NCBI RefSeq assembly: GCF_964275005.1
Contig: NC_092690.1
Location: 9,793,010-9,857,009 of the forward strand
From: Diadema setosum
Taxonomy: Eukaryota > Echinodermata > Echinoidea > Diadematoida > Diadematidae
Reading direction: 5' to 3'
DNA: 64,000 nt
Shown: in pieces, positions 11,135-49,994 of the stretch
Layout of the letters: the number at the start of each line of letters is the position of its first letter
Position numbering within the stretch: the first letter of the stretch is position 1
Notes under the pieces: generated by a model
What the model saw: only the letters and a program-made list of their open reading frames with translations
The model's database searches: none
What the model was told of the DNA's origin: nothing
Position numbers and translations under genes: made by a program

Positions 11135-12803
11135 GAACCCCAAGAACACCATCTTTGATGCAAAGCGACTAATAGGTCGACGATTCGCAGACCACAGCGT
11201 GCAAACCGACATGAGTCACTGGCCATTCACTGTCATTAGCCAAGAAGACAAACCTGCGATACAGGTTGAGTACATGGGGGAGAATAAGATCCTTGCCCCA
11301 GAGGAAGTCAGCTCCATGGTTCTCAGCAAGATGAAGGAGACGGCCGAGGCATATCTGGGTCAGAAAGTCACAGATGCTGTCATCACTGTTCCCGCCTACT
11401 TCAATGATGCTCAACGACAGGCCACCAAAGATGCCGGTGTCATTGCAGGGCTGAATGTTCTTCGCATCATCAATGAACCGACAGCAGCTGCCTTGGCGTA
11501 CGGACTAGATAAGGATTTGCAAGGTCAGCAGCATGTCCTGATCTTTGACCTTGGCGGAGGCACATTTGATGTGTCCATCCTGCTAATCAATGACGGTGTC
11601 TTCGAAGTCAAATCAACTGCTGGAGACACCCATCTTGGTGGTGAGGACTTTGACAACAGGTTGGTGAACTATCTTGCAGAAGAATTCAAACGTAGAAACA
11701 GGAAGGACCTCAAAAACAACCCACGAGCCCTTCGAAGGCTCCACACAGCAGCTGAGCGTGCAAAGAGGACACTCTCAAGTAGTTCCTATGCTAGTATCGA
11801 TGCAGAATCCCTGTTCGAAGGAATCGATTTCAACATGGAAATCACCAGAGCTCGCTTCGAAGACCTCTGCTCTGATCTCTTTAGAAAGTGCCTTGACCCA
11901 GTTGACAGCGCTCTTGCTGATGCAAATATCAACAAGAAAGACATCGACACTGTTGTGCTGGTTGGAGGATCAACCCGTATTCCCAAGATCCAGAAGCTTC
12001 TGCAGGAATTCCTGGATGGCAAGGACCTCAACAAGTCCATCCATCCAGATGAAGCTGTGGCTTACGGTGCAGCAATCCAGGCAGCAATCTTGTCTGGAGA
12101 TCAGAGCAAGGAGATTCAGGACGTCTTGCTCGTCGACATTGCTCCACTCTCTCTCGGAATTAACATCGTTGGTGGCGAAATGTCAACCATAATCAAGAGA
12201 AATACGACAATTCCCACCGTCGCAACTGCGTCTTACACCACAGTTTCCGATAACCAAACACGCCTAGCTGTTAAAGTGTATGAGGGAGAGAGGGCGCTCA
12301 CCAAAGACAACAACCTACTTGGAGAGTTCGTGCTACGTGGCATTCCACCAGCTCCAAGAGGTGTTGCAGATATCAAAGTGACCTTTGACATCGACGCCAA
12401 CGGCATCATGAATGTGACAGCCAAGGACCAGAGCACAGGTCGCAGCAACAACATCACGATCACCAACGACAGCGGCCGTCTGTCCAAGGAAGAAATTGAA
12501 CGCATGGTCAGCGATGCAGAGAAGTTCAAAACTGAGGATGAACTCCATCGGAAAAGAATCAGAGCCAGAAACCAACTGGAAAGCTACGCTTTTAGCGTCA
12601 AGTCCGCCGTCAACGAACCATCAGCTGAGAGGAAGCTAACGGCTGATGAGAAACAGTCGGTTATCAAGGCTGCAGATGATGTCATTCAGTGGCTAGATTT
12701 GAACCCTAAGGCAACCAAAGAAGAGTTCACAAACCAACTGGAGGAGCTTCAGAAAACTTGCTCACCAAGCATGATGAAGATGCATGGTGGCAGTGGACAA
12801 TAA
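11135..12803 (+). CDS. hsp70: Hsp70 gene B, exon 2
   Basis: Residues 63 to 618 of gene B, after the acceptor ctgcag. The ATPase domain is intact: [48 protein letters not shown]. Next come the linker [16 protein letters not shown], the substrate-binding beta domain ([17 protein letters not shown]) and the helical lid. It ends MKMHGGSGQ and a TAA, about 25 residues short of gene A, so it lacks the EEVD-type tail. The stop aligns with the second CAA of gene A's GGACAACAA. The canonical NQPGV of the substrate-binding loop is NQTRL here, a form shared only with gene C. It should fold and hydrolyse ATP, but TPR co-chaperone docking should be impaired (inference). Confidence 0.93.
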
Positions 12804-12848
12804 AGTGACTACCGTGACCATCCTGCTAAAGAAGAGACTGACTTTTGA
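12804..12848 (+). pseudogene. Relict C-terminal tail of gene B after the stop
   Basis: In frame after the TAA, a stretch of 14 codons reads SDYRDHPAKEETDF and ends in TGA. The EETD near its end matches the expected place of the EEVD/EEMD motif. It is shorter than gene A's tail. It is either a decayed tail in the 3' UTR or, less likely, a readthrough extension. Confidence 0.55.
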
Positions 12849-13403
12849 TTAGCCACAATCATTAAATAGGAATTAATGTTCAGTGTATAGTATACCCTTT
12901 TTATTCGGTGGTACATTTACTGTCATAGTGCTTTTGCATTTTTAAATTACAACGATGATTATGACTCTTGATTACTGCATAAAGATAACTCATTTTACTA
13001 AATGTCGAGGGCATAATAATTGCCACTTTGGTTAAATTTTATTTCATTTACAGATTTCATATGACAGCACACATTGGATACGGACTTTGTATAGTTTCTG
13101 TGCAAGAGTGTAAACTGAAACTGAGCACGACTCTTTGTCATTTATTTGGCTGAATACAATAATTGAGATTTAGCATCAAATATAGCATTAAGATGAAATC
13201 GCAAGATGACTAATGATATGAGTTACATTAAATATGTCTTGAATAATGAGTATACTAGTATGTATATAATTATATTGTATCAAGAGAGTTGTAAAGGTAC
13301 GTACACACTTTACTTCGTTTATGTACTGTTTCTCATGGAAAAAGAAATTCTCAACAAAGATAACCTTAAAAACAGTTGGACGGAAAGTTTCTTTTATTTG
13401 CTA

Positions 13404-13469
13404 AATATATATATATATATGTATATATATATATATATATATATATATATATATATATATATATATATT
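13404..13469. repeat. (AT)n microsatellite
   Basis: About 65 bp of AT dinucleotides with one GT interruption. Confidence 0.95.
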
Positions 13470-47549: not shown

Positions 47550-48249
47550 CGGTAGTAACATTTTGAGTGTTGCCCATGATTCGTGTCGTGAAAAAGACAG
47601 CTTTGACATTGAAATTAATGAATTCTTGCGTCGAGTTGTTTTTATTCCAACAACAGGTGTAATTGCGATTCATCGACATAAATACACGCCGATTTTCACT
47701 GTTTTGCGAAATAGGAATGATAAATATCATGGGCATTGTACTTGGGTGAGATAGTCAGCCACAAATGGCAGAAGCTTAGTCGAGTGCATTTGACATCTGT
47801 ATTGCAATCAGGATGTCATGGCTTCGGATCTCACTCGAGTACGTTTTGAGATAAACTTGATTAATAATAAACTTGTAACAAATAAAAACAAAAATGGTAT
47901 TAACACTTAAAAAAAATAAATACGCAGCCTCAAAAAACAAAAACAAAAACATACAAGCAACAGATAATTGCCTCTAGTTGGTTACGCAGTCATTGAAAGT
48001 GGGATTGTGCATAACACACTAGTCGTTCTACGTTGCCACCACTACTAGAATTCTAGCCTGGATACACAGGCTCTCATGTGGCCACCAAATGGTGGGCCAT
48101 GTTGAGCTCATAACGCTAGAAGGTGTTGTATTTGTAATATCTGTTTATGAAGACTTTGAAAATATCTCTATTCATTTCGATATGACGATAATTGCGACAG
48201 TTTTACTTCTTTACAAGTAGTTTCATTTTCATTTTCTCATGCACTACAG

Positions 48250-49918
48250 GAACCCTAAGAACACAATATTTGATGTCAAACGGCTGATTGGTCGCCGATT
48301 CACAGACGAGAGTGTACAAGCTGATATGAAGCACTGGCCATTCAAGGTGATCAACCAAGAAGGCAAACCTAAGCTGGAGGTGGAATACAAGGGGGAAAAG
48401 AAGATTCTCGCCCCAGTGGAAGTCAGCTCCATGGTTTTGACCAAGATGAAAGAGACGGCCGAGGCATATTTGGGTCAGAAAGTCACTGATGCTGTCATCA
48501 CTGTTCCTGCTTACTTCAATGATGCTCAGCGACAGGCCACCAAAGACGCAGGTGTCATTGCAGGGCTGAATGTTCTCCGCATCATCAATGAACCGACGGC
48601 AGCTGCCCTGGCGTATGGACTAGATAAGAGGGTTGAAGGTGAACAGCGTGTCCTGATCTTTGACCTTGGTGGAGGCACATTTGATGTGTCCATTTTGTCG
48701 ATCGATGATGATATCTTCGAAGTCATGTCAACTGCTGGAGACACCCATCTTGGTGGTGAGGACTTTAACAACAGGCTGGTCAGCTATCTTTCACAGGAAT
48801 TCAAGCGTAAGCACAAGAAGGACCTCACAAACAACCCACAAGCCATCCAACGTCTCCACACAGTCGCTGAGCGTGCAAAAAGAACCCTCTCAGCTGGTCC
48901 CCATGCCAGCATTGAGGAAGACTCTCTCTTCGAAGGAGTTGATTTCTACACAAGAATCACCAGAGCTCGCTTTGAAGGCCTCTGCTATGATCTCTTTAGA
49001 AAGTGCCTTGACCCAGTTGAGAGGGCTATTACTGATGCAAATATCAACAAAAGAGACATCGACACTGTTGTGCTGGTTGGAGGATCAACCCGTATTCCCA
49101 AGGTCCGGAGGCTTCTACAGGAGTTTCTAAATGGCAAGGACCTTAGCAAGTCCATCCATCCAGATGAAGCTGTGGCTTACGGTGCAGCAATCCAGGCAGC
49201 TATCTTGTCTGGAGATCGAAGCGCAGAAATCCAGGATGTCGTCCTCGTTGACGTAACCTCACTTTCTCTTGGAACCGAGGTGGATGGTGGTGAAATGTCA
49301 ACCATAATCAAGAGAAATACGACCATTCCTGTTACGGCAACAGAGGCCTACTCCACAGCTTCAGACAACCAAACAGGCATGGACATTGAAGTGTACGAGG
49401 GAGAGAGGGCGCTTACTAAATACAACAACCTACTTGGAGAGTTCGAGCTGACAGGAATTCCTCCAGCACCAAGAGGTGTGCCGAAGATCAAAGTGACCTT
49501 TGACATTGACGCCAATGGCATCATGAATGTAACAGCTAAAGATCAGAGCACAGGTCGTAGCAACAACATCATAATTACCAACAACAGAGACCGTCTATCC
49601 AAGGAAGAAATTGAACTCATGATCAACGACGCTGAGAAGTTCAGACTTCACGATGACCTACAACGGAAAAGAAATGCTTCCAGAAACAAACTAAAGGACT
49701 ACGCGTACAGCGTTAAATCCGCTGTCAACGAAACATCAGCCGAGAGGGAGCTAACCGCTTGTGACAAAGAAAAGGTCACCAAGGCTGTAGAAAAAGTTCT
49801 TCAGTGGTTGGATTCCAACTACAAGGCAACCGAGGGAGAGTTAACACAGCAGCTTGAGGAGCTTCAGAAAACCTGCTCACCAATCATGATCAAAATAAAT
49901 GTTGCGAGGGGACGATAA
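48250..49918 (+). CDS. hsp70: Hsp70 gene D, exon 2
   Basis: Completes a 618-residue Hsp70 nearly identical to gene C. All ATPase motifs are intact, with EDFNNR as in C. The substrate-binding domain differs from C in one block: [33 protein letters not shown] and GVPKIKVTF, closer to gene A. Small changes include ARFEGLCYD for ARFEDLCYD and LTACDKEK in the lid. It ends [10 protein letters not shown], then TAA, without the EEVD tail. Confidence 0.93.
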
Positions 49919-49994
49919 AATGACTACCATCGAGTAGGGCTACAGCAAGGACTAGCTGATTAATTGTCTTACTGATGTGGAAGAGATGGAGTAA
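49919..49994 (+). pseudogene. Relict C-terminal tail of gene D, frameshifted
   Basis: Compared with gene C, a one-base insertion in GATTAATTGTCT shifts the frame and makes a second stop (TAA at 49961-49963). The last part, in another frame, still reads DVEEME (49974-49991). So unlike C, readthrough could not restore the tail here. Confidence 0.7.

Follow-up and report, generated by a model that had tools for sequence, protein, structure and literature searches.

The C-terminal EEVD motif serves cytosolic Hsp70 as a hub, both for passing clients on to Hsp90 and CHIP and for engaging class-B J proteins. Hsp70s without this tail are known already, as plant Hsp70T and yeast Ssb, and the genes that we describe here encode a variant of such proteins. 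As one study describes them, plant Hsp70T proteins of type T1 are cytosolic-type Hsp70s without EEVD that are encoded in tandem gene clusters, and its authors infer that transfer to Hsp90 and the proteasome route has been lost (PMC10687569). Laboratory deletion of the motif has been informative as well: DnaJB4 is reported to leave Hsp72 ΔEEVD unstimulated and to support only poor luciferase refolding by it (PMC8913300), and Ssa1 ΔEEVD is impaired with Sis1, not with Ydj1 (PMC8670446). To these we compare a 64,000-nucleotide stretch of the genome of the sea urchin Diadema setosum (contig NC_092690.1, C6 in our numbering, C6:9793010-9857009; genome of 912.7 Mb in 102 contigs), hereafter the window, which holds part of an array of two-exon, cytosolic-type Hsp70 genes, seven of which end at one shared premature stop codon. 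We consider it probable that these copies are side-branches of the chaperone system rendered tail-less by that early stop.

Queries for a search of the whole genome were the Hsp70 profile and exon 2 of a window gene, B. At least 23 loci carry exon-2 type copies of the two-exon Hsp70, besides multi-exon genes of the same family. Fourteen of the 23 form a single plus-strand array of 345 kb, which starts with an exon 1 at C6:9.7406 Mb and extends to C6:10.0856 Mb. Exon 2 is open in 11 of these (A, B, C, D, L014, L015 and L017-L021) and broken in three, and the window contains exon 2 of A, B, C and D; exon 1 falls within it for B, C, D and the copy that follows. Outside the array, L009-L013 are intact and all five end in EEVD; L022, L023, L025 and L027 are broken.

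A first-pass annotation, made from the letters of the window alone, had pointed out that gene A reads GGA CAA CAA near its end and runs on for 24 further codons to EEMD, and that TAA takes the place of the second CAA in B, C and D. Both statements are borne out: after GGA CAA CAA, A continues GAT AAC and onward to EEMD, with 25 codons left if the place of the stop codon is counted. Comparison of the aligned codon in 19 copies extends the pattern beyond these genes. Among open copies it is TAA in B, C, D, L015 and L019, TAG in L018 and TGA in L021; it is also TAA in the broken copies L016 and L024, so that outside the window four additional open copies and two broken ones stop there. CAA is present in A, in L020 and in the broken copy L026. 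Thus, seven of the 11 open array copies end at the shared codon (five TAA, one TAG, one TGA), and none of the seven has a canonical C-terminal EEVD. The other four comprise A with its EEMD, L020 with a hydrophobic tail, and two copies truncated otherwise, L014 by a stop one codon later and L017 by an unrelated short tail. The shared stop is confirmed, and an assembly error is an unlikely source because seven open copies carry a stop in this one position. The TAG of L018 and the TGA of L021 represent too few stop-to-stop changes to serve as a sign of selected termination, and we do not use them in that way.

Upstream of the stop, the genes encode recognizable Hsp70s. In B, C and D, an open exon 1 of 188 nt with an AT/GT donor (slash at the exon end) joins an exon 2 with a CAG/G acceptor, giving a product of 618 aa in each case. 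Exon 2 of A, B, C and D matches Pfam PF00012 with E values from 1.3e-201 to 9e-216, spanning profile positions 59/60 to 596/597 of 599; the first ~60 positions come from exon 1, and all four genes match the full profile across the ATPase and substrate domains, as members of the Hsp70 family do. Human HSPA1A is the top-scoring PDB match of gene B, whose body can be aligned to it as far as residue 615 of 641; therefore, the truncation takes only the disordered tail with EExD. By this alignment the new C-terminus falls at about residue 615-616 of HSPA1A, just beyond the substrate-domain lid. Twelve nucleotide-site residues, chosen by HSPA1A numbering, are all kept in B, C, D, L018, L015 and L019, and the sole departure at these sites among the seven same-codon copies is G in place of D366 in L021. 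Gene D has S for P in the PLSL motif after the linker. Gene A alone among the open array copies ends in EExD; its nucleotide-site motif VGGSTRIP carries Glu in place of the first Gly, and this tailed copy may be the catalytically odd member of the array.

The lost tail had also been described as still legible past the stop. This holds for B, which retains EETD after an apparent 36-nt deletion, and for C, which reads NDYHRVGLQQGLPDYCLTDVEEMK before its next stop and so reaches DVEEMK in frame; it does not hold in the same sense for D, where one additional base relative to C puts DVEEME, followed by a stop, solely in a different frame. The ungapped match between C and A past the stop is real, with 39 of 72 bases identical; shuffled sequences gave a mean of 18.1 and a maximum of 34, and 39 was reached in 0 of 20000 shuffles. 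Rates computed separately for body and tail, a comparison that had been suggested for these genes, find the body constrained and the tail evolving at about the speed of four-fold sites. Across the seven stop copies the relative speed is 1.59 in the post-stop region, 1.70 at four-fold sites and 0.60 at codon positions 1+2; the sequence that follows, which is poorly aligned, has 2.97. Read in the old frame, the post-stop region has a speed of 1.50 at positions 1+2 and 1.81 at position 3. As the speed is about that of four-fold sites and carries no reading-frame signal, we read the post-stop tail as a relic, not as a read-through extension.

These data also bear on the possibility that the TAA is bypassed and an EExD end restored, either by read-through or by a 3' exon. 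The in-frame legibility of the C relic up to DVEEMK would fit such a bypass. Counter to this are the tail speed with its missing frame signature, a second in-frame stop three codons further on in L015, L019 and L021, and, in D and L018, a base that breaks the frame when compared with C. Moreover, no good splice donor was found over the 150 nt leading up to the stop in the seven stop copies, where the best scores are 1.3-2.8; the top sites around the exon 1 ends of 11 genes score 5.2-9.3, the site taken at L020 being other than its real donor. Tail rates, extra stops and donor scores together lead us to reject bypass as the main explanation and to regard it as very improbable.

The tail-less genes of the array probably arose as follows. 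Early in the history of the array, a CAA just past the substrate-domain lid is likely to have become TAA, leaving the ATPase, substrate-binding and lid domains in place and, as the alignment indicates, removing the disordered tail with EExD. Duplication and gene conversion would then have spread the tail-less form to the seven open copies now counted. Judging from published EEVD-deletion mutants, the products would retain ATP cycling, client binding and work with class-A J proteins, would not dock Hop or CHIP through the EEVD carboxylate, and would receive no stimulation from class-B J proteins, DNAJB1/B4 for example. Such side-branches would stand apart from hand-over to Hsp90, ubiquitination by CHIP and disaggregation driven by class-B proteins, routes that the EEVD copies and the Hsc70 of the same genome would serve. 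Independence from tetratricopeptide repeat (TPR) partners is a reasonable expectation. The predicted loss of coupling to class-B J proteins, which goes beyond the first-pass annotation, should be given a weight equal to that of lost TPR docking, in view of the mutant studies (PMC8913300, PMC8670446). Should the proposal be correct, an animal gene set in which a stop has cut off EEVD and left the rest would make the partner-free function of Hsp70 testable in a living animal.

Several observations weigh against this proposal. The mutant results come from mammals and yeast and are transferred to another phylum, and the Hsp72 study reports a lower intrinsic ATPase for the ΔEEVD protein (PMC8913300); therefore, a tail-less protein may simply be weaker. 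Others concern selection. Codon models were fitted by maximum likelihood to 609 body codons of 16 genes on a fixed tree. Omega, the ratio of nonsynonymous to synonymous rates, is 0.076 on EEVD background branches and 0.30 in the tail-less clade, where it rises by domain from 0.24 (ATPase) through 0.38 (substrate beta) to 0.47 (lid); L020 has 0.364 and L017 has 0.213. It is raised already in A and L014 (0.283), which branch before the shared stop. Therefore, relaxation predates that stop and may have produced it as a side effect. The five EEVD copies agree with one another at 423 columns; departures there number 44-69 in the same-codon copies, 43 in A, 46 in L014, 59 in L017 and, the most in the array, 84 in L020. 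Because the columns were selected for invariance in EEVD copies, these departures are comparable among array copies only. The view of the first-pass annotation that the ATPase and substrate domains are intact is right as to conservation, but "intact" is too strong for bodies whose omega is about four times that of EEVD copies.

The same figures could signify decay, in which dispensable duplicates of EEVD genes are released from constraint and the stop, with no role of its own, belongs to an early stage of pseudogene formation. Omega is raised about fourfold throughout the array, A and L014 included, three of the 14 copies are broken, and L014 and L017 lost their tails separately. Upstream sequence may point the same way. 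The 600 nt before each ATG were scanned for heat shock element (HSE)-like sites, allowing 1 mismatch in 9 (0.09-0.27 expected per copy). Among the EEVD copies, L009, L010 and L012 have two each and L011 and L013 have none; in the array, L018, L014, L016 and L021 have one each and none was found in the other 10 of 14 copies, a distribution that at most hints at altered regulation. Transcripts of plant T1 genes, too, are reported as difficult to detect (PMC10687569). Arguing against decay, fixing omega at 1 in the tail-less clade lowers the log-likelihood by 172, so that omega = 1 is rejected; all seven same-codon copies have an exon 2 open across 551-553 codons and an exon 1 that is open and spliceable; and the nucleotide-site residues are retained. 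The tail-less bodies are thus under relaxed yet clear purifying selection, and we regard decay as unlikely.

Site models applied to the 11 array genes favour M2a over M1a (twice the log-likelihood difference, 13.8), with 1.3% of sites affected (columns 438 and 209). Gene conversion can mimic an M2a signal, and we therefore do not use positive selection in the array as support. Column 438 of the alignment is a highly variable residue at which M2a favours omega >1; it presumably adjoins a strand of the substrate pocket, a position that we take from DnaK and HSPA1A.

The remaining points against the proposal concern the history of the stop. The first-pass annotation had placed a single nonsense change before the split of B, C and D. 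In a tree of 22 exon-2 bodies (L027 omitted as too broken; 1660 of 1790 columns), nine stop rows together with L017, L020 and L026 form a clade of 12 with support 100/99. The nine stop rows are interspersed with L020 and L026, both of which have CAA, and so do not form one clade; an approximately unbiased (AU) test rejects a single clade of the nine (p 0.0005), also when they are set against the eight sense rows only (p 0.0185). Therefore, a single nonsense change is tenable only with re-openings, with gene conversion, or if one of these two copies branched off earlier. Placing either of these alone outside is not rejected (L020, p 0.128; L026, p 0.084), but placing both outside is (p 0.015). 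With 17 rows coded as stop or sense and five not counted, the distribution requires three changes, for which one gain and two re-openings suffice, and while the stop copies as one clade are rejected, one origin with re-openings is not. In a two-state model, the ancestor of the 12-row clade carries a stop with P 0.93-0.99 at equal rates of 0.33-2; P falls to 0.80 when the equal rate is 5 and to 0.76 for rates of 2/0.3, and with 5/0.05, the setting of worst likelihood among the nine, it is 0.013. The two halves of exon 2 give conflicting trees, C grouping with D in the 5' half (100/99) and with L018 in the 3' half (100/100). Gene conversion or recombination has therefore acted, which weakens the tree and the branch models alike.

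One could thus suppose that the stop recurred, or was spread by gene conversion, and that B, C and D share no founding mutation by descent. The rejected clade, the CAA of L020 and L026, the different and strongly supported sister pairs from the exon 2 halves, and the repeated tail loss seen in L014 and L017 would all agree with this. Set against it are the identity of base change and codon, the AAT GAY that follows the stop and is kept in C, D, L018, L019 and L021, the high probability of a stop at the clade base at equal rates up to 2, and the fewest-change history. We judge this alternative rather unlikely. The claim of one nonsense change before the B/C/D split survives in qualified form: a single CAA-to-TAA change is the likeliest history, best but not sole, blurred by gene conversion and by the two CAA copies.

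L020 (C6:9883900-9888600, at C6:9.884 Mb) may be the most novel part of the array. Its exon 1 is open with donor AT/GTAAAC, the acceptor before exon 2 is TAG, and its frame stays open through the CAA to ...TESDNTVLIVVCIGLLLLLLNVLYMRLWYQ, so that a hydrophobic, transmembrane-like segment stands in frame where EEVD would be. The best 19-residue mean hydropathy in exon 2 is 2.92, 5 residues from the end, compared with 1.31-1.96 in the 15 other open copies. When 20000 random frames of 30 codons with similar base content were generated and ended at their first stop, 2 had a value as high. L020 thus has the single strongly hydrophobic segment near the C-terminus that is characteristic of tail-anchored proteins. 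A genome search with the 153-nt tail, at E up to 0.001, gave no match but the tail itself; very common words were skipped in this search, which leaves the uniqueness of the tail unproven. Tentatively, L020 may have either re-opened its frame or branched off before the stop, and its former tail region would now encode a transmembrane segment, making it a tail-anchored Hsp70 beside soluble tail-less sisters. It is possible, if doubtful, that the array has been a natural workshop for the Hsp70 C-terminus since the founding nonsense mutation, with tail-anchored L020 as a product. In that event, a chaperone would be fixed to a membrane by its own C-terminus and not recruited by a TPR or J-domain protein, and there would be a direct path from a lost docking tail to a new cellular location.

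Coordinates within the window are collected in Table 1. Elsewhere in the genome, a multi-exon Hsc70-like gene on C14 has GGMP repeats and TIEEVD at its C-terminus, and a BiP-like gene on C17 ends in HDEL. The mitochondrial COI gene (contig C102) makes better sense under the echinoderm code, with AAA as Asn at 4 codons, and probably resembles sea urchin COI; a bivalve origin of the DNA was set aside on this reading. The analysis of promoters was confined to pairwise BLAST and to simple patterns for HSE and TATA. By BLAST, B, C, D, L015, L024 and L026 have related upstream sequence, and B, C, D, L015 and L024 have a TATA-like site ~280-350 nt before the ATG, unlike the upstream regions of HSE-bearing L009 and L010. 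Three open frames of 156-265 codons in the window have no Pfam match (19740-20537, 21163-21759 and 53111-53581, all on the minus strand).

Table 1. Hsp70 exons and tail relics in the window (window positions; slash marks the exon end)
Feature	Position	Strand	Remarks
Gene A exon 2	2993..4736	+	ends EEMD; CAA 4659-4661 at the stop codon position of B, C and D; exon 1 precedes the window
Gene B exon 1	8507..8694	+	from ATG, 188 nt, donor AT/GTAAGT
Gene B exon 2	11135..12803	+	stop TAA 12801-12803
Relic of lost B tail	12804..12848	+	SDYRDHPAKEETDF, then stop
Gene C exon 1	18084..18271	+	
Gene C exon 2	27520..29188	+	stop TAA 29186-29188
Relic of lost C tail	29189..29263	+	in frame as far as DVEEMK, then stop
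Gene D exon 1	40496..40683	+	
Gene D exon 2	48250..49918	+	stop TAA 49916-49918
Relic of lost D tail	49919..49994	+	frame shifted by one base; DVEEME, then stop, in other frame
Exon 1 of next array gene, L018	62258..62445	+	L018 exon 2 past the window end, TAG at the same codon

Among known Hsp70s without the tail, the yeast Ssb proteins are ribosome-associated, as the names of PDB entries also indicate, and form a separate family, whereas gene B scores highest with human HSPA1A in the PDB search. Ssb1 and Ssb2 resemble the array in being Hsp70s without an EEVD end, as described in the plant study (PMC10687569). The laboratory Hsp72 and Ssa1 ΔEEVD mutants lack the same docking motif (PMC8913300, PMC8670446); the array copies differ in being natural, in having lost the whole tail and in their diverged bodies. 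Within sea urchins, the 651-aa Hsp70 of Sterechinus neumayeri belongs to the same protein family but, unlike the tail-less copies, is marked in a figure legend as having GGMP repeats and an EEVD motif (PMC5872545). No tail-less or tail-anchored echinoderm Hsp70 was among the matches listed in open-licence literature, by searches directed partly at molluscs and bivalves, from which absence from print does not follow. The likeness to plant Hsp70T T1 extends to two traits, the missing EEVD and tandem clustering. Those proteins belong to plants and green algae and are variable in the lid and C-terminal region (PMC10687569); the array genes, by contrast, retain the lid, and seven of them stop at a single codon, past which the lost tail can still be read.

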